A DNA stretch of 64,000 nucleotides from Paracyclopina nana (taxonomy: Eukaryota > Arthropoda > Copepoda > Cyclopoida > Cyclopettidae), in contig JAGUCH010000004.1 in assembly GCA_019096065.1 (NCBI GenBank), positions 5,642,001-5,706,000 on the forward strand. Reading direction: 5' to 3'. The position numbers were made by a program, and so were the translations under genes. Below the pieces are notes generated by a model. That model made no database searches and was not told the origin of the DNA. It saw only the letters and a list, made by a program, of their open reading frames with translations. Positions 41,996 to 52,440 of this stretch are shown here, one piece after another. Position 1 is the first letter of the stretch, and each line of letters opens with the position of its first letter.

Positions 41996-44900
41996 TCATT
42001 GAGCAAGTTTTGGAGCTGAGTCGCAAGTTATGAGCATAGAAAACTTGGCAAAATGGTAAATTCGTAATCCTTCTGGTAACAGGCCAGCAGATTCCACCAA
42101 CCCATCAACGAGGTTATCGTAAATGGCAAATATTTTCTTCTGCCTGGCAGCGCCTCTGACTTTGGATAGTTCTTGAATAGGCTTCACAAGGTCAATGTAG
42201 TTAAAGTTGGCATTTACCCAACAGTCGCACATTTCTTCCGCTATAAAGGAAGCTACTGCCATCCAATTGCGTTGACACTTCATACCCTCGGAAAAGAGGT
42301 GCGCGTAGCAGGACTGCAGCATTTTCTCGTAGGAACGGTTCGGATACATGCTGCGTATCTCAATAAGTTCAGTCTTGAAGGGAGAGATCATTTCGGATAA
42401 TTTTGCTTTATGCGTCCGCATGACATCATCATCGCTGTACCGCACCGCATCAACGGTAATAGAGCCCAGCTTCAAAAGCTCCTCCAATTTGACTCTGCTT
42501 GCATAAGAAACGGTGGTAAGGTTGGGAAAGCGAGCTTCGCACTCTTTTTCGTAGGCAGCATGGTCCAAATGGGCAAATTCGAGGAAGCGAAGCACAGTTT
42601 CGACAGAATAGTTCACCGGAGGCTCATCAGAGGTGCTCAAACAAGTGAGCTTGGACAGCTGGATTTTGATGTTGCAATCAACCCACAGGTGTTCGCCATC
42701 GGTGGTGTATTCATGATCGAGGATAGTTGCCAAGTCAAAAGTCACACTGATGCCTTCGACTTTCACAGCATAGAACTCTACGCAGTCACTTCCTCCAGCA
42801 ACAGGGATTTGTAATATAAATTTCTTCTTCTTAGCTTTCCTTGAAGAGCTGCTGATTTTCAAGCTGGCGTCAGTGTCATACTCAGTTGTCGTTGCTAAGA
42901 TTTCTCCATCTTCAAACTCCATAGATTCATCGGGCGTGATTGTGATCTTTTGCAAAAGCATTAGCACATCCTTGAGCACGATGTGCATGTCATGGTCAAA
43001 GTTTCCCATCAGCAGGTGAGCCTGCAGGGAGAACTTGAAGGCGGTCAAATGAGTGCCTTGTGACAGCACTTCCATCTCTTTCATGATGAATTGTAGTGAT
43101 GCTGGAGAGTGGTGTTTCCTCAGCATTGTCTCAATGATGTCATACACTTCCTCTTTGTCTGAGTGCATCATGAGAACGTTTTTCCTTACTTGAGCCCAAG
43201 CTTCGCAATATTGGCTTGGAGTGGCAGCCTTCTTCATATGGAGCCTTCTCTTTCCCAGCAGAGCTTTCGTTTTGAAAAACATGGCAGTGTACTCAAGCAT
43301 AATTTTGAGATCAATTCTCACAGTTCCACGTGCATTGATAGGTAGCAGACAGGAAGCATTGTCAAACATTTTTGTCAATTTTTGCAACAGCTGGTCAAGG
43401 GTTTTCTGATGGCTGACAGCGCACGTGAACAGCGACTCCAATTGGCTGTGACTAAAGCCCAAAATGATCCATGTTTCCACGCACAGCTTGGCCACTTCAG
43501 GCGCACTCTCCTCCTTGAAATGGAATTTCATGAGGATCTCATAGAAACACCTCAGAGACTTGAAGGTTGCCATGTGGATATAGTCGGATTGGATTTGGAA
43601 GAGCCGCTTCTTTCTAAAGTCATTGTGCTTGGCATTGCTCCTCAGCTCTGAGCTAAGTGAGTCTGCTCTGGTCATGAAAAAATCATAGGTCCAAGAAGCC
43701 AAAGTCTGGGCTTCCACTGGCAAGCTCTCCTCTTTGCATTTGGAGATCAGCTCTTCAAAAATGCCCACAACACATTTCTTGCCTTTGAGGACATTCTGCT
43801 CAAAAACATCTTTGAGCTTGGCTGGTGTGCAACCACAATCAATCCACACGGCCACCAAATCATTGCATACTTTTTGAGAGCCTTGTTGACCAGCTAGGCG
43901 TGCTGAAAAGTGCTTCTTCAAGGGAACAAACAAGAGTTTCTGTTCAATTTTTTCTTGGCTAATTTTCCTCGAGTCCTCTCCTCGCTCTAGAGAGTCAAAG
44001 AATTTTTCGAGTCCCTGCCTGACAGACTCATCTTGCTCGTCTTCGTCCATATCTTCCGCGATTTCAGCCTCGTTTTCACGCAAATTCAAGTCATCAAGCT
44101 TGAGCTCTATGGCAGGAGAGAAGTGGTCCAACAGGAGGTTGACAAAGGTGGCTTGGTCTTCGATGAAATCCGGAGCCTTGATTTTATTTTCTTCGATAAA
44201 CTCCTCGAGCTTGCCAAATCCAGCAGCCTCTGAAATGTCGGCATACTGCAAACGATTCGCAAGCAAGTACGTCGCGAGTTGGATGGACAAAAAGTTGGCC
44301 GTGCTTATGTCGGTTCCATTGGCTCGGTAGCTTCTAGCAACAAATCTGATCAGAGGCGAGAAAGGAGTCAGTTGTTTGCTAATTGACCACGAGCTGGCAA
44401 TAGTGGTCAACGTATCCGCCACTTCCTCTTTGACCTCAGCCAGCTCAAGACCATTGTCAGGCTTTTTGTCTGCGTCCACATTGTCAGGCTTTTTGCACGT
44501 GTCCTCGTCCATGGAGCCTTCTTCGGTTTCCGGCTGCTTATTCTCCTTTTCTGCTCGGGACTCCTCCATTCTTAGTAGCTTTGCCATCATTCTGTTATCA
44601 AAAGCTTGCTTCTTCCTTCGACTTAGCATCACTGACAGGTAGACCCTAATGGTGAAGCCCAACGCATACAAATGCGCGTAACCATCTGGATTGGCAAAAA
44701 ACGGCTCTGTTGGCCGGCTCAACAGCAGAAATCCGGAAGGACTTCCTTTCTTTCCTTCGCCATCCAAGTCAGCGATGAAGTCGTGAGTCAGTGATGCCAA
44801 AGTGTCCATATAATTGGGATTGTTGGGATTTTCAAAAATGTCTTCGGTATCTTTGTTGATGGAGAAAATGGCTAGATTCGAATTGGGGGAGAACACACTC

Positions 44901-45700
44901 TGGCAGCTCTCAACGGCGAATTTGATGGCAGCAGCATACTTCAAAGGAGCAATGTCGAGTTTCTCACACGAAGCCAATAATCTGGACCCCATCTTGATGA
45001 TTTTGCCAAAAACATCTCCTTTTTCTTCCATAAGAAAGAGTATAAAAGACAATGTCGTGTGATTGGCCGATACGAAAAGTCCCAGAGACTCTTGCTTCTG
45101 TTCTCCCAAGGGAGCATTTTCAGCCATCATTCTTTCAACCCCTAGGCGAATTTGCGTCAGATCGAGACTTGAAGAACGCTCCTTTTTTGCACCAACTCTC
45201 TTCACAGCTGAGATGTACGCATGAGCATCAGGAATGAATTCTTCGGCAAATGCAATAAATTTCACAGTATCGTTGCACTCCTCAACGCTGCTAGGTTTTG
45301 GGCTCTCGATTGGGCAAGACGCTTCATTGAAAAGGGGATCGCACTCTCCAAAAATGTCGAGATTGGCCCGGTAATGCTTGGCGATTTCAGACATGACCAC
45401 CTTCTCGTACGCCTCTCTCGTATTCCCAGCTTTCAGAGCATCAGAGACAATTGTCTCAGGGTCCAAATTCATGCTCTCGAGAATTTTGAGAAAGTTCCTC
45501 AGTCGGAGTCTGGACACATCCTCAGTAATGGTGGAGAACTGCTCTTGGTAAGCCTCCACGATTTCTTGAATTGGAAAGCCCATGGCGTCATACTTGTCCA
45601 AGAGGTCGTCACGAACAATAGGAGTTTTCTCAACAAACTCGTCAACAGGTGCTTTATCTTTGTGCATCACTTGAAAGCACTTATGGACCTCCTCCTTCAT
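41996..45700 (-). CDS. Gene A: unknown 1,234-residue protein with repeated helical motif
   Basis: I do not recognise the family. It is an uninterrupted frame of predicted alpha-helical, mostly soluble character with no signal peptide or membrane segment. A charged low-complexity region lies near residues 365-405 and an acidic cluster (EDMDEDEQDES) near 560. A motif of the form V-x3-L-x2-W-I-x2-G-x-S-x3-L recurs: VCNDLVAVWIDCGCTPAKLK (~609), VAKLCVETWIILGFSHSQLE (~733) and CDCWVNANFNYIDLVK (~1153). The neighbour B has comparable motifs and an N-terminal K(D/N)KAP match. I start at ATG 45700. A splice acceptor (ATCGTTTTAG) ends at 45726, so there is an upstream exon, either 5' UTR or a small coding exon at 45804-45850 that would be phase-compatible and add 24 residues. 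Armadillo/MIF4G-like folds are possible but unproven. Confidence 0.8.
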   Translation of the reverse strand: MKEEVHKCFQVMHKDKAPVDEFVEKTPIVRDDLLDKYDAMGFPIQEIVEAYQEQFSTITEDVSRLRLRNFLKILESMNLDPETIVSDALKAGNTREAYEKVVMSEIAKHYRANLDIFGECDPLFNEASCPIESPKPSSVEECNDTVKFIAFAEEFIPDAHAYISAVKRVGAKKERSSSLDLTQIRLGVERMMAENAPLGEQKQESLGLFVSANHTTLSFILFLMEEKGDVFGKIIKMGSRLLASCEKLDIAPLKYAAAIKFAVESCQSVFSPNSNLAIFSINKDTEDIFENPNNPNYMDTLASLTHDFIADLDGEGKKGSPSGFLLLSRPTEPFFANPDGYAHLYALGFTIRVYLSVMLSRRKKQAFDNRMMAKLLRMEESRAEKENKQPETEEGSMDEDTCKKPDNVDADKKPDNGLELAEVKEEVADTLTTIASSWSISKQLTPFSPLIRFVARSYRANGTDISTANFLSIQLATYLLANRLQYADISEAAGFGKLEEFIEENKIKAPDFIEDQATFVNLLLDHFSPAIELKLDDLNLRENEAEIAEDMDEDEQDESVRQGLEKFFDSLERGEDSRKISQEKIEQKLLFVPLKKHFSARLAGQQGSQKVCNDLVAVWIDCGCTPAKLKDVFEQNVLKGKKCVVGIFEELISKCKEESLPVEAQTLASWTYDFFMTRADSLSSELRSNAKHNDFRKKRLFQIQSDYIHMATFKSLRCFYEILMKFHFKEESAPEVAKLCVETWIILGFSHSQLESLFTCAVSHQKTLDQLLQKLTKMFDNASCLLPINARGTVRIDLKIMLEYTAMFFKTKALLGKRRLHMKKAATPSQYCEAWAQVRKNVLMMHSDKEEVYDIIETMLRKHHSPASLQFIMKEMEVLSQGTHLTAFKFSLQAHLLMGNFDHDMHIVLKDVLMLLQKITITPDESMEFEDGEILATTTEYDTDASLKISSSSRKAKKKKFILQIPVAGGSDCVEFYAVKVEGISVTFDLATILDHEYTTDGEHLWVDCNIKIQLSKLTCLSTSDEPPVNYSVETVLRFLEFAHLDHAAYEKECEARFPNLTTVSYASRVKLEELLKLGSITVDAVRYSDDDVMRTHKAKLSEMISPFKTELIEIRSMYPNRSYEKMLQSCYAHLFSEGMKCQRNWMAVASFIAEEMCDCWVNANFNYIDLVKPIQELSKVRGAARQKKIFAIYDNLVDGLVESAGLLPEGLRIYHFAKFSMLITCDSAPKLAQ

Positions 45701-46468
45701 GTACGCGACCAAATTAAAGGTATCCCTAAAACGATGGATAATAAGTCAACACAAAAACGATGAAATCAAATACAATAACCCAATTAGTCATCAAAAGTCA
45801 CACCAACTTGCTGTCTTAAGAAAGTGAGTGAGATATTTTGAGCGTCGCATTTAAGTGCCGCCAAATGCGTCAAATGTCAAAGATAATTAGTTATATGCAC
45901 AATTTTTCATCTCAAATTTTGTGGTGTTCATCTACGTCATCTCTCCTTGTCATGAGGAAACTTATGATTTCAAGACTCCGTAATTTTCGTACTCAGGAAC
46001 ATTATTTCACACTAAAAGTAGTAGGAACTAAAAAATCAACTTTTAAGAATCATCACCAACTCTTAGTTTTAAGCTCAGGCTCAGTTCTGAAACTATTCGC
46101 CAAAGGAAATAAGATAAGAATTGTCCTTTCCTTTGTAGATGAACACAACAAAATGTCCCTAGACCTAGAACACTATTTTCTAGTTACTTCCGCTTTTCAT
46201 GCGAAAGTATTCAGTTTTGTACTAACCGTACCAGATGACATGTCCAGTGCCAATTTGGAAAGCCACAAGCGTCAGCTTTACAACAATCAAAATTGGAAAG
46301 GTGCATGTACTATGTTTTGAGGAGTTTTGAAAGTACTCCTATCATTTTTGTAGGCTGCTAAAAAAATTATTTTTTTAAATTTCGCAAAAGCAATATTTTT
46401 GTAATGTCATTCAGACGGCTTCTGCGCGTATTATAACTGTAAAAAAGGAGGGTGAAACAGCCCAAAAG
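45701..46468. other. Spacer between genes A and B
   Basis: Contains the probable first intron (45726-45803) of gene A and the 3' UTR of gene B. A plus-strand frame (45838-46320) begins only at TTG and shows no domain. Confidence 0.4.
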
Positions 46469-49400
46469 TTAACAATCTTTTAGCATATGTTTGATTACAA
46501 GGTTGCAAAAACTTTTGAAAAGGTACCTGAGGGCCACGAGTGGAACTCTTGCTGCCAGGGCCTCCGCCATATAATCCTTGTAGTCGATGTTGAAACCCAA
46601 ATTGAATAGGTAGAAGTAGATGGCATCAAAAGTGTAAAACTCTCCCTTTTGCGGATTCAATACTTCTGAATAGGTCACTTTGAAGTTGACCTTAGTCTTC
46701 TTGTTGAATTTGATTTGGTGGCCATGGCCAAACTGCAGCGATTGGCCATTATCCACTTCCTCCACATTTGTCATTTGGCAAGTTTTGAAGTAATGCTGCA
46801 GAAACTTGAGGCAAAAAATGGACTTTGGTAATGGTGCCATCAGAGCCATAGGATTTTCAACAGATGACACCATTGCATGTGCCACAATTGTCAATGCATC
46901 CAAGGTGACAGTTTCGTCGCTTATATTTCCGATCGAAATCATCAACTGGTTGCCACACACCAGCCGATCGTCGCAGACGAAAATTCGGCACAACTTATTA
47001 TCGTAGAGGTCCAAGTTTCCCCAAATTTTCATCGGGGTCAAAGTACGAATCCTTGGAATTCCGCACAGCGTGGCTGTGCATTTGACCTTTCTTTTTCCTT
47101 CGATGGTAATTTTCTTCGTGATCATCACGTTTCCAGGGCTCTCGATGAACAGTTCAGGGTCATGCTTCATGGGCTCACTTTTCGTCAGGGGCGAAGCCCA
47201 TGAGTTGTTTTCGATGCTGAACACTTCCTCGGTCTCTTCCTTGATGTTTCCTTTGCTGCTGAAAGTAGCCTGGGCCATTTCCGAGCTAATGATGTTGGGG
47301 AAGCTGATATTACATTGCACCTTCATGCTCACTTCAGTGCTCACGATCGTGCCTGTCTTGATGAGTATGAAGGCCCTCCTTTTCAACGCATCTCGCATTT
47401 TGTGAGAATTAGGTGGGCCAAGGAGAGGCCTCCTTTTCACCAGACTCGTCGCCCAAATAGATGTGAGTTTTTGAGCTGTGTTGCAATCTAGCAAGTCTTG
47501 GTTTTTCGAAATGCCCATGGTGAACTTGGTGAGAGAGCCCTGGTAAAACTCTTCAACAACTTTGTAAATGGTAAGGCCGTTTTCAATCATCTTGTCAGTG
47601 AGCTTGGATACATATTTTGTCAAGTTGGATATGCTGACATCAGTGAAAGCCACATGCTCGAGCTCGCCAAATGACATCATCATGTAGGCCTCCTCAAGAA
47701 GGCACTTCACAATGTACTCTAGTAAAGAGTGCAGCCCGTTACCCTCGTCTTGCTTAACTTTTTGACAATCCACGACAGCACTGAACTTCACGCTTGCATC
47801 CTTGTGGATGAAAAACTCTTGTGTGGCACTTTGCAAGGCACCGAAAAGCAGCTTGCACGAACTGGGCAACTCGGTGGGATTCACGTTGGCAAGCCTGTGC
47901 TTCTTCAACTCTCCCATATTGAATCCATTTTCGGCCAAGTAGGCAATGAAGTCGTTGGCCACTTGCACAGGTTGGTGCTTCAAGTAGCGGCAGTTCCTGA
48001 CTTGACGCGAAAAGTTGAGGAACTCGTGGAAGTCAAAGAACTCTTCAGGGCAATCTCGTCTCTCCACATACAGGCCATAAACCGAGTCCAAAAAGAGGTC
48101 AACTTGTGTCAGCAGCTCCTTTGGGCTAACAGCTTCCTTCGCATATGGGGATACATAGGGAGTGACAGCATATTCAGCGCATTTTGTGAAGAACTTTTGG
48201 AAAATCTCCAGATCTGAGGTGAAATGGGACGAATGTTTCCGTCTGTCAAATAGCTTATCCTCCATCCGTTTGATGTCTTTCGAGTTGGCTGCTCTCTCCT
48301 TGATGTCGGTGAGACTGTAAGAGCTCTTGTCAAGGAATCTCAAAAAGTCCAACACAATTTTCTGGCAGTTGCAATCAGCCCAGGCTGGAAAATCGAGCTT
48401 GGCAACCTCAGCGAACTCAATGACACCATCCATGATATTGGTGTGCTTCTCGTAAGTGTTCTTGAACATTCTCAGGTCATTTTGAGATATACCCCGGCTG
48501 TTTCCAAAGCCCATTTCTCTCGAGTCTAGTTGAGGTGCTCTGGCACTTCGGACAGGACTTATTGACGAGCGACCGCTCCTTCTGTAGGGAGGCGGTGGCG
48601 TTCGCGGTCCACCTTTTTTATTGTGAGTGGTTCGGGGAAGTGATGAGTGGCCACGTCTAGAGGATTGGGAGCGAGAGCCAGGAGACGGAGATCTTCGTAG
48701 TTGGCATTTAGGGGATCTGCTTCGGTTACTCCGGGAGGATGAGGGGGACCTTCTTGTTCGCTCCCTGCTGCGAGATCGGAAAGACCGAGATGTCGACCGA
48801 AATCCTCTTACAGGTGATCTCGCCTCCCTTTTAGGTGATTTGCGGCTAAAGGAGGGTGACCCTCGGCCCCTATCCGATGATAACCTCCGATCCCTGCTAG
48901 GAGGTGACCTCCTGACAGGAGATCTGACTCGTCTGGGTGGACTTCTGTGGCTTCTACTGCTTGAAGCAACTGAATATGGTGACGGAGATCGTCTCCTCTC
49001 ATGGTCAGTAGGAGGTGATGAGAAGGGCGGGCTGCGCTTGATCTTTTGCTGCGATGAATAGGAAGGCCGGAAAAGCCTACCAGAAACTGTGCTGTATTCG
49101 GGAGACACTGACACGTCGCTGGACGCTTCGTTTTGTTTCTTGTCTGCCAAGACCGTCCTGTCAGAGCTTTCGATGTATTTACTTGGCCTCTGAGCGTCCA
49201 CATGCGAAACCTCACTTTTCACAGGCTCGGTGAGGAGAGGTGCAGCTTGGACAGGCATAGGCAAGTTAAATCTAAGCGAAGGCGGCGGAGGACTCGGTGA
49301 AGCCGATAGACTTCGCATAATAGTCATGTAAGAGGTCATTGCGCCAAGGGTCACAAATGGCTGGCTATTGCATGTTTGGCAGAATTCGATGATGAGTTGG

Positions 49401-50122
49401 ACGAGATCATTCATTCTTATCGGTGGTAGTAGTTGACGATCAAATTTTTCGAGGAAGGACAAGATGATTGTCTTGAATTTGCTGTCGTCACTCTTGTCCC
49501 TTCGCTTCTCCAAATCACAACCATAAAGGGCCAGAATTCCATAGCTGCGAAGCTTTGCCTCAGCTAGCACTGCCATGCACCGGTCAAAAGTCTCCCTAAG
49601 ATCACTTGTATCCACTCTAAGGGACAGCTTTTCCCAGAAAAACTCGTGGAAACTCTCTGCAGCAGTTATCCCCTTTGAGTCGCCCCCTTTCATGCTGTCC
49701 ATGATGGGAGGTATTCGAGGTGTTTCGTCCACTTCATCTTCATCTGAAGACAAATTGACCACCTCAGGTTCAGCAGGAGCAGCCCTGCTCGAATATGTTC
49801 TGGGGTCACATTGAGGTCGATTGGTAAAAGGCTGAGCACTCACTACTTTTTTCATGAATTTCACTGTTTCGTCAACGATGGCCGACTTGGAGATACCCAA
49901 TTTGTGCACAGCGGGATTGCGATTCAGTTTCTCCCACAACATCTTGTTCAACATGGAATCGTCCAAGTTGAGTGCTACAAACTTGTACAGAGCTTTGTAG
50001 TCAGTGAAGACCAACTTCCATGCTTGTACTTTCTTGATGCATGCTTCTTTAGGGGCTTTGTTTTTGTAATGCCTGTACAGTGGGATGAAGTCTTGCAAGT
50101 CATTAGGTAAGTCTTGGGACAT
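46469..50122 (-). CDS. Gene B: unknown 1,217-residue protein with SR-rich domain
   Basis: Unrecognised protein from an uninterrupted frame starting MSQDLPNDLQD. Residues ~1-115 are helical and contain KNKAP, also found near the start of gene A. An acidic Ser patch (VVNLSSDEDEVDET) lies near 125. Residues ~375-530 form a long Arg/Ser/Pro-rich domain with many RS and SP steps (RVRSPVRRSPPSRDRR), typical of splicing and nuclear-speckle proteins. The rest is helical and has motifs like those of gene A: VANDFIAYLAENGFNMGELK (~719) and YVSKLTDKMIENGLTIYKVV (~836). The last third looks beta-richer (LTPMKIWGNLDLYDNKLCRI). The ATG lies 4 bp after a strong splice acceptor (TTTTTTTTTCTTTCAG), itself 27 bp after the METTL26 stop, so the mRNA is formed either by trans-splicing or from a transcript shared with METTL26. 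Confidence 0.82.
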   Translation of the reverse strand: MSQDLPNDLQDFIPLYRHYKNKAPKEACIKKVQAWKLVFTDYKALYKFVALNLDDSMLNKMLWEKLNRNPAVHKLGISKSAIVDETVKFMKKVVSAQPFTNRPQCDPRTYSSRAAPAEPEVVNLSSDEDEVDETPRIPPIMDSMKGGDSKGITAAESFHEFFWEKLSLRVDTSDLRETFDRCMAVLAEAKLRSYGILALYGCDLEKRRDKSDDSKFKTIILSFLEKFDRQLLPPIRMNDLVQLIIEFCQTCNSQPFVTLGAMTSYMTIMRSLSASPSPPPPSLRFNLPMPVQAAPLLTEPVKSEVSHVDAQRPSKYIESSDRTVLADKKQNEASSDVSVSPEYSTVSGRLFRPSYSSQQKIKRSPPFSSPPTDHERRRSPSPYSVASSSRSHRSPPRRVRSPVRRSPPSRDRRLSSDRGRGSPSFSRKSPKREARSPVRGFRSTSRSFRSRSRERTRRSPSSSRSNRSRSPKCQLRRSPSPGSRSQSSRRGHSSLPRTTHNKKGGPRTPPPPYRRSGRSSISPVRSARAPQLDSREMGFGNSRGISQNDLRMFKNTYEKHTNIMDGVIEFAEVAKLDFPAWADCNCQKIVLDFLRFLDKSSYSLTDIKERAANSKDIKRMEDKLFDRRKHSSHFTSDLEIFQKFFTKCAEYAVTPYVSPYAKEAVSPKELLTQVDLFLDSVYGLYVERRDCPEEFFDFHEFLNFSRQVRNCRYLKHQPVQVANDFIAYLAENGFNMGELKKHRLANVNPTELPSSCKLLFGALQSATQEFFIHKDASVKFSAVVDCQKVKQDEGNGLHSLLEYIVKCLLEEAYMMMSFGELEHVAFTDVSISNLTKYVSKLTDKMIENGLTIYKVVEEFYQGSLTKFTMGISKNQDLLDCNTAQKLTSIWATSLVKRRPLLGPPNSHKMRDALKRRAFILIKTGTIVSTEVSMKVQCNISFPNIISSEMAQATFSSKGNIKEETEEVFSIENNSWASPLTKSEPMKHDPELFIESPGNVMITKKITIEGKRKVKCTATLCGIPRIRTLTPMKIWGNLDLYDNKLCRIFVCDDRLVCGNQLMISIGNISDETVTLDALTIVAHAMVSSVENPMALMAPLPKSIFCLKFLQHYFKTCQMTNVEEVDNGQSLQFGHGHQIKFNKKTKVNFKVTYSEVLNPQKGEFYTFDAIYFYLFNLGFNIDYKDYMAEALAARVPLVALRYLFKSFCNLVIKHMLKDC

Positions 50123-50126
50123 TTTT

Positions 50127-50153
50127 CTGAAAGAAAAAAAATGTGAAGAGGGG
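50127..50153 (-). promoter_or_regulatory. 27-nt METTL26-B spacer with splice acceptor
   Basis: Minus-strand sequence between the METTL26 TAA and the gene B leader. It is a near-ideal polypyrimidine tract and CAG acceptor, with no AATAAA, no donor and no room for a promoter. Confidence 0.7.
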
Positions 50154-50783: not shown

Positions 50784-51471
50784 GGTGACTTAAAGGAATG
50801 ATCACTTAATAGCGGTTATCAAGCGCGTTTCAACTGGATTTACTTACTATTAGATTATTTACCCTCCTTGATTTGACAGGTTTTATCTCGAAGATAAATA
50901 AGCAGACCTGTTTTCTTGATAGATTGTGGACGAAACGCAACAGTCAGCATTGTATTCAAGTTTTTTCCAGAAACAAGCATATCATTCCATTAAACGCCAA
51001 AAATGCCGTACTTAGAATTTTAGTAACCTAGCAACGCTTTAAAAAGCGAATAACAATTTATAGGGAAATGTTTTTCCGTCAAAAAATGTTTATCTATCCA
51101 AATGTATGGAATAAGCCACATTTTATTGCTTATATTGATGGTCAAAATATAACACGTATTTTTATTATTATTATGATGTGGCAACTTATGAACGAAACGC
51201 GACAGAGTGCAGCCAAGTGAAATGCCATGGTCGAGCTTGCACCCATGAGCATAGCTAAGGAGCAAGATGGTCGATAAAATTGCGTCTTTTTAGTGCGTAA
51301 ATAGGAGCAGTGACAAGTGGCGAAATGCCAACGAAGGTAACGGTGAAATGAAGTGAAGCAGAATGTTCTCAACTTTCTCGCCTTTGAATTGTGCTTGGAG
51401 TGTGACCCCCGTCTCGAGCTTGGCAACTCTCTCATCTGGTGACAAGAAAACTAATCTAGTTGATCTCCGTT
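50784..51471. other. Spacer between METTL26 and the ChaN-like gene
   Basis: Divergent promoter region of 688 bp. No exon or defined site seen. Confidence 0.4.
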
Positions 51472-52440
51472 ATGCGACTGGTTTCGTCTCAAATCTTACT
51501 TATGATATCTCGAAGGACGATGACGACCAACATTAGGGAGCCAGTCTTCTTCCAGGGCAACGGCAACCCTTTGAACAAGGAGAGCTTCTTTGCCAAAATC
51601 GAGTCCAACTTGAACATCAAGCCAAAGCATATTCTGCTCCTCGGAGAAAACCACTCCGACCCAAGTGCTCATCAGTTGGAGCTGGAAATACTCACCCGCG
51701 TGGCCGCCCTCAAGCCAGGCGAAGCAGCTCTTTCATTGGAATTTTTTGACAGATCTGCTCAGGCTGTGCTGGACGAGTACTTACTCGACTTTATCGACTA
51801 TGACACGTTTATCGAGAACTGCCAAGCGCCGGCCAACCACAAAGACTACCGGCCGCTCATTGAGTTTTGTAAGGCACGAAAGCTTCCAGTAATTGCTGCA
51901 AACTGCTCGAGACGTCACAGCCGTTTGATGTCAAGACAAGGCCCGGATGCCATGGAGAAATTGGCAGAGGAGTCGGAGTTGCACAGGAACTTTTTGCTGC
52001 CTCCTCTCCCAATTCAGGCAGCGAGTCCCCAATATGAGGCCAACTTCAGAGCTACTATGGGCATAGTTGGTTCGGAAGGTTTGGACGATCACAAAATCAC
52101 TCGGATGCTAGGTATGGCCAGAATGAAAAATATCCATATCCTGTTAACTATATCACATTTTTTCATGCCAGGTGCTCAAAGTCTCTGGGACGCGACTATG
52201 GCCCACAGTATCACCAAGTGTCTGTACCGATCGAATCTAGTCATCCACATTGCTGGGTACTTCCACGTGAAACACCACTTGGGCATACCCGAGCACTTGG
52301 CTCATTACTGCACAGATATTGACTATGGACTTACCAGCGTCGTAATGCTTCCTGAAGAAGATCTCGTCTTTACCGAAAATGAACACAGAGATGCTTCCGA
52401 TCTGGTGATATTGACCGACATCAATGCTATCGATCTGTAG
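51472..52440 (+). CDS. ChaN-like (DUF399) haem-binding/Tiki-superfamily protein
   Basis: Member of the haem-binding uptake/Tiki superfamily, best known from bacterial ChaN lipoproteins. Exons 51472-52111 and 52172-52440 give 302 residues. Conserved parts are HILLLGENHSDPSAHQLEL (the GE.H motif), ALSLEFFDRSAQAVLDEYL, PVIAANCSRRHSRL, then AQSLWDATMAHSI, which forms only after removing the intron, and HIAGYFHVKHHLGIP (the GxxH motif). The intron is exactly 60 nt, in frame and without a stop (GTATGG...GCCAG), so a single frame runs through it. Splicing restores the family motif, so I treat it as a real intron. The N-terminus (MRLVSSQILLMISRRTMTT) looks like a mitochondrial presequence. Function in animals is not established. 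Confidence 0.87.
   Translation: MRLVSSQILLMISRRTMTTNIREPVFFQGNGNPLNKESFFAKIESNLNIKPKHILLLGENHSDPSAHQLELEILTRVAALKPGEAALSLEFFDRSAQAVLDEYLLDFIDYDTFIENCQAPANHKDYRPLIEFCKARKLPVIAANCSRRHSRLMSRQGPDAMEKLAEESELHRNFLLPPLPIQAASPQYEANFRATMGIVGSEGLDDHKITRMLGMARMKNIHILLTISHFFMPGAQSLWDATMAHSITKCLYRSNLVIHIAGYFHVKHHLGIPEHLAHYCTDIDYGLTSVVMLPEEDLVFTENEHRDASDLVILTDINAIDL

Follow-up and report, generated by a model that had tools for sequence, protein, structure and literature searches.

What are the two giant genes that lie side by side on the minus strand between positions 41,996 and 50,122 of a 64,000-nucleotide stretch of the copepod Paracyclopina nana (contig JAGUCH010000004.1, positions 5,642,001 to 5,706,000; hereafter the window)? 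The interval runs from the stop codon of gene A to the ATG of gene B, and a reading made from the letters of the DNA alone (the sequence-only reading) had taken the pair for a new, fast-evolving protein family born by tandem duplication. Profile comparisons point to a domain that both proteins appear to carry. The C-terminus of B is probably a diverged domain resembling the N-terminal domain (NTD) of CDC73 (parafibromin), a factor of transcription elongation, and A somewhat probably carries such a domain too, split by an insert.

At the level of the whole protein, A and B resist assignment, as the sequence-only reading had reported. Neither has a match in Pfam even at E 10, a match in NCBIfam, or a match below E 0.05 among PDB sequences. 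The PDB matches above that level are weak: complement C3 for A (E 0.83) and, for B, Nup159 (E 0.055, covering B 600-714 in the numbering of a 1233-aa frame), a hypothetical protein (0.94) and parafibromin (1.7). The outcome that the sequence-only reading had named as telling against a joint family, confident placement of the two proteins in two unrelated known families, did not emerge.

The signal appears when the proteins are divided. Among ten pieces of A and B scanned against Pfam, B 1095-1217 matches CDC73_N (E 1.4e-4, 21.8 bits), while the best match of the remaining nine stands at E 0.015, followed by 0.017, which is chance level. Alternative pieces of B match CDC73_N with E-values of 1.3e-4, 1.4e-4, 2.8e-4 and 2.2e-4, and a 673-aa piece with 0.0024. 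Searched against the PDB up to E 10, B 1115-1197 retrieves three sequences, all of them parafibromin (0.089, 0.11 and 1.7), and with a longer piece parafibromin (0.27 and 0.35) is followed by centromere protein O (1.1). In hhalign comparisons with the CDC73 NTD, the probability is 56% for the C-terminal piece of B and 27% for the whole protein. For A, the corresponding values are 2% and 1%.

These matches bear on a second explanation, in which A and B are fast-evolving orthologs of large helical proteins already known (nucleoporins, for instance, or subunits of Mediator, Integrator or DNA-repair scaffolds) but have diverged beyond recognition, and the CDC73-like match reflects chance or a general fold. 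An excerpted study attributes many lineage-specific genes to homology-detection failure (PMC7660931), the lack of paralogs is what orthologs would be expected to show, the structure models contain long helical stretches at very low confidence, and weak matches to Nup159 (B) and to Med18 (a stretch of A, E 0.035) exist. Both of those matches, however, are short and at chance level, and the CDC73_N match of B is ~100-fold better than the next best in the same scan. We regard this explanation as unlikely.

Searching the genome (91.95 Mb in 10 contigs) with the CDC73_N model returned four candidates. The true CDC73 lies at C2:6749062-6750066, separate from A and B. Gene C, a giant single exon on contig C3 (L036:1590-6641; a 1730-codon open frame, 1684 aa), matches CDC73_N at E 2.2e-8 with 34.2 bits over two stretches, above the cut-off of 27; taken singly, the stretches score 32.7 and 23.9 bits. 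CDC73_N is also the sole Pfam match of gene C above a cut-off. B was absent from the four candidates, so the first look of such a search misses diverged members, and the genome may hold more of them. A further giant single frame on the same contig, gene D (L039:2481-5846, 1122 aa), matches nothing in Pfam at E 10 or below; it shares modules with gene C (BLASTP 2.4e-14) that are beta-rich by eye.

The two CDC73_N-matching domains of gene C (CD1 and CD2) and this genome's own CDC73 supplied a profile built without A or B. Of the 1025 windows scanned with it, 806 came from 25 control proteins and the rest from A, B and gene D. B ranks first (33.8) and A second (29.3), above the best control window (24.2), and none of 400 shuffles of either segment reaches its score. 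With five further profiles, the fifth of which had A itself as a member, B exceeds the control maximum each time; A does so with own CDC73 plus CD1 (36.5 vs 29.0) and, marginally, with own CDC73 alone (48.0 vs 47.0). In HMMER, the three-sequence profile places B at 10.9 bits, top among the sequences outside its training set.

In A, the resemblance falls into two parts, residues 911-935 and 1031-1053, which are collinear with CDC73 but lie 95 residues apart, compared with 28 in human CDC73. A third match, ending at residue 1084, is barely above noise. A two-part test that tolerates a spacer of at most 110 residues gave, with own and human CDC73, 72.5 for A and 67.5 for B, against 51.0 for the best of the 25 controls. 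None of the 60 shuffles of each protein reached these scores (best 56 for A and 59 for B), and the reversed sequences gave 46.0 and 39.5. Adding CD1 and CD2 to this profile gave 46.0 for A and 47.5 for B, with controls at 32.5 or below and again no shuffle among 60 reaching either value, although those of A came up to 44.0. With CD1 and CD2 alone, B scored 49.5 (one of 60 shuffles higher; controls up to 41.5). B thus outscores every control in the window scans and in all three two-part tests.

Several results weigh against these assignments. For B, the CDC73_N match lies under the curated cut-off, the gathering score of the family (21.8 bits vs 27), and HMMER with single queries lifts B no higher than noise (own CDC73, 0.3 bits; CD2, 4.0 bits). 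For A, the natural pieces give no CDC73_N match, only a copy with the insert deleted being matched (E 0.038), and pieces of its C-terminal region gave other weak Pfam matches, among them that to Med18. The HMMER profile of own CDC73, CD1 and CD2 gives A 1.9 bits, the level of shuffles. Furthermore, in the window scans A scores less than the best control with own CDC73 plus CD2 (28.0 vs 36.0) and with CD1 plus CD2 (23.5 vs 25.5), and in the two-part test with CD1 and CD2 alone it scores 37.0, which 30 of 60 shuffles reach and controls exceed (up to 41.5). The two-part test was itself designed after the two halves of A had been seen. For both proteins, the whole-protein Pfam scans are empty, and the structure models (predicted local distance difference test, pLDDT, 35.6 and 33.6) are too poor to probe the fold.

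A rival explanation is that only B has a CDC73-NTD-like domain and that A is an unrelated orphan neighbor whose length and order agree with those of B by coincidence. This fits the lack of detectable pairwise similarity between A and B, the failure of the natural pieces of A to match CDC73_N, and the dependence of the A match on the CDC73 sequences chosen for the profile. It is opposed by the windows of A, which are the best of 1025 apart from those of B, and by the collinearity of its halves with CDC73. We consider it possible but doubtful, and retain the reading in which both proteins carry the domain.

Whether A and B are duplicates of each other is a separate question. Direct comparison is negative throughout: the best BLASTP E-value is 0.31 (not significant), single-sequence hhalign gives a probability of 0.2%, and Smith-Waterman and global alignments do not rise clearly above shuffles. 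One segment pair, A 130-380 with B 145-280, reached z ~4 and was discarded because control proteins reach 4.65. Six-frame searches of the genome, in which only the best candidates were scored, recovered A and B as single copies, with no paralog. Of the weak matches they returned, one (L003, E 0.17) was set aside without reading, and two (L027 and L029, E 3.57 and 2.68) were read and judged to be chance. The proposal of a new family by tandem duplication thus finds neither similarity between the two proteins nor a paralog in its support; what speaks for it is that both appear to carry the CDC73-NTD-like domain, and that two such stretches occur in gene C, likewise giant and made up of a single exon. 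A domain common to A and B falls short of proving tandem duplication. A and B may nevertheless be old tandem duplicates, which, given that the domain of A is real, is about an even bet. Duplication is favored by the shared domain, placed toward the C-terminus in both proteins, and by a similar predicted order of helices, strands and helices, which both models show broadly and at very low confidence.

The sequence motifs noted in both proteins fared unevenly. A KxKAP stretch does stand close to both N-termini (A 14, B 20), with an additional one in A at residue 506. The recurrent motif V-x3-L-x2-W-I-x2-G-x-S-x3-L has no literal match in either protein; a relaxed form, written after the sequences had been seen, occurs three times in A (611, 736 and 1153) and once in B (721). 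Matrices were then built from segments chosen by eye. With one from six segments of A, the two highest scores fall at B 733 (16.6, reached by 1 of 300 shuffles of B) and B 849 (11.7), and none of the 25 control proteins exceeds 7.9. With one from five segments of B, A scores 14.4, compared with at most 10.5 in the controls, and 3 of 300 shuffles score as high. The motif resemblance of A and B is thus more than random, albeit between eye-picked segments. A profile of seven segments, however, also matches unrelated helix-turn-helix proteins of the PDB (BurrH repeats, MARK4 and UBAP1 stretches). The motif is therefore read as a general helix-cap motif and was rejected as a family mark.

Genes A and B are genuine protein-coding genes and not artefacts. 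As the sequence-only reading had it, they occupy the same strand in two frames free of internal stops, with the lengths given in Table 1. Codon scores trained on six neighboring genes are coding-like in every one of the 12 blocks of A and in all but one of the 12 blocks of B, the exceptional block lying inside an arginine-serine-rich (RS-rich) stretch. The scores of 0.28 (A) and 0.19 (B) bits per codon compare with 0.14 for the ABC transporter and 0.21 for the glycine dehydrogenase, each left out of its own training. In the shifted frames a single block is not negative (0.02), and the reverse strand ranges from -0.69 to 0.14. The absence of internal introns, offered as a sign of duplication, is real but not distinctive. 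Among the open reading frames of 300 aa or more in 164 kb (the window plus its right flank), 4 of 27 exceed 1200 codons (2084, 1291, A and B). Three further frames were runs of N and were dropped, and the 100 kb left of the window (C4:5542001-5642000) consists of N, which leaves the right flank as the control. Since long single exons are ordinary in this genome, the absence of introns is uninformative on duplication. Inside gene A, a 27-base unit is repeated in tandem (window 44452-44504), in a linker that by eye is rich in Lys, Pro, Asp and Asn.

An origin of the pair from a virus, a bacterium or a mobile element would account for giant single-exon frames, and A has two weak PHROG matches (E 0.005 and 0.27; function unknown). 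Against this, the codon usage of A and B is like that of the neighboring genes, and long single exons are normal here. Moreover, no relative of A was found in phages, viral contigs or prokaryote contigs, nor one of B in viral contigs, the contig searches detecting close relatives only; the last 673 aa of B have none in plasmids. Foreign origin is very improbable.

The pair is indeed set among conserved genes, as had been noted: MPP6, an ABC transporter, a DUF938 gene (presumably METTL26-like), glycine dehydrogenase, a ChaN/Tiki-superfamily gene, a WD40 gene and PGM, the last with three exons by eye. The haem-binding domain of the ChaN/Tiki-superfamily gene (PF04187, E 5.7e-43; window 51460-52437) adjoins the pair; genes of this type are mostly bacterial. 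The right flank contains, at ~91.7-98.0 kb (window coordinates), three long frames that adjoin or overlap one another and look retrotransposon-like by eye; they were among the 25 controls. The cuticle domain Chitin_bind_4 has 80 matches in the genome, as expected of an arthropod, and COX1 gave none.

The DUF938 gene and B share a strand, the ATG of B following 31 nt after the DUF938 stop codon. Given the pyrimidine tract in this gap, which ends in CAG, B has the look of a downstream cistron preceded by a splice acceptor, possibly one for trans-splicing. Spliced-leader trans-splicing is present in copepods and amphipods, and operons are unreported there, according to an excerpt of PMC7986045. 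On contig C3, gene D (minus strand) begins ~103 nt past the end of a frame with LRR1 domains (L039:5953-7242, minus), and a pyrimidine tract with CAG stands 16 nt upstream of its ATG, a layout that resembles that of B.

Table 1. Features of genes A and B and of the gap upstream of B (window coordinates; residues are those of the encoded proteins)
Feature	Residues	Position	Strand	Basis or remark
Gene A, single open frame	1234 aa	41999..45700	-	stop codon 41996-41998
Gene B, single open frame	1217 aa	46472..50122	-	stop codon 46469-46471
Likely CDC73-NTD-like domain of A, two parts	905-1090	42431..42988	-	profile tests
Probable CDC73-NTD-like domain of B	1100-1217 (core ~1110-1196)	46472..46825	-	Pfam, PDB and profile tests
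RS-rich low-complexity region of B	340-545	48488..49105	-	32 SR/RS dipeptides; R+S 49%
SUMO-interaction-like motif of B	121-130	49733..49762	-	pattern match only
KxKAP of A	14-18	45647..45661	-	pattern match
KxKAP of B	20-24	50051..50065	-	pattern match
Relaxed helix-cap motif of A	611-629	43814..43870	-	
Relaxed helix-cap motif of A	736-754	43439..43495	-	
Relaxed helix-cap motif of A	1153-1171	42188..42244	-	
Relaxed helix-cap motif of B	721-739	47906..47962	-	
Gap of 31 nt, DUF938 gene stop codon to B ATG		50123..50153	-	pyrimidine tract ending in CAG, splice-acceptor-like

Taken together, the domain assignments suggest that A and B could be giant single-exon proteins that serve in the nucleus as adaptors or scaffolds and dock through a diverged CDC73-NTD-like domain, a reading whose chances of being right or wrong we judge to be equal. 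The domain would act as a docking surface that joins a large helical platform to the transcription-elongation or RNA-processing machinery, and the RS-rich and SUMO-binding parts of B would likewise be joined to that machinery. More tentatively still, the CDC73 NTD might have turned into a mobile docking module in this arthropod lineage. No fewer than three giant single-exon nuclear proteins (A, B and C) would then bear it in the absence of the other parts of CDC73 and combine it with helical platforms, RS-rich stretches and motifs that bind SUMO. They would form a rapidly evolving side network that acts around RNA polymerase II during elongation, or around RNA processing or silencing in the nucleus. 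The NTD carries human tumor-syndrome mutations, according to an excerpt of PMC5688130, and an excerpted 2026 survey counts it among the most conspicuous uncharacterized regions of metazoan elongation factors (PMC13289920). If the reading is true, proteins with only the CDC73 NTD, in several diverged copies in one genome, amount to a natural experiment on its binding. The NTD is known from CDC73; a limited literature check found no report of it outside CDC73 and no description of giant proteins that bear it without the rest of CDC73. Orthologs of A and B may already be catalogued as uncharacterized proteins.

Three known systems offer comparison. SR proteins are defined by an RS region of at least 50 aa with over 40% R+S, together with one or two RRM domains. 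B resembles SR-related splicing proteins in its RS-rich region, which extends over ~126-206 residues and in B 373-498 reaches 59% R+S, above that composition; Pfam scans found neither an RRM nor a PWI domain in B. Its SUMO-interaction-like motif has a hydrophobic core followed by acidic residues.

Gene C resembles A and B as a giant single exon with CDC73_N matches, and by eye has SUMO-interaction-like motifs and a disordered-looking basic C-terminal region. It differs in the beta modules that it has in common with gene D, which profiles did not detect in A or B, and it cannot be aligned to either by BLASTP or single-sequence hhalign. A likeness by eye of these beta modules, and of a helix motif, to parts of A or B was ruled out by profiles.

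CDC73 itself is the closest comparison. Neither A nor B qualifies as the CDC73 ortholog of this genome, given the true gene on contig C2. Since Pfam scans of A and B returned no C-terminal (Ras-like) domain of CDC73, and a true CDC73 is present, the two proteins are unlike CDC73 replacements. They differ from CDC73 in placing the domain in the C-terminal part of a giant protein and, in A, in a long insert; identity of the CDC73 and gene C sequences to A or B is 14-25% over aligned columns. The CDC73 NTD (PF16050; PDB 5YDE and 5YDF) has four helices, a three-stranded sheet and a conserved hydrophobic groove of unclear role, as given in an excerpt of PMC5688130. Its residue pattern and order are followed by B ~1110-1196 and, less surely, by A 911-935 and 1031-1053, with the best agreement of A and B around human residues 53-75.

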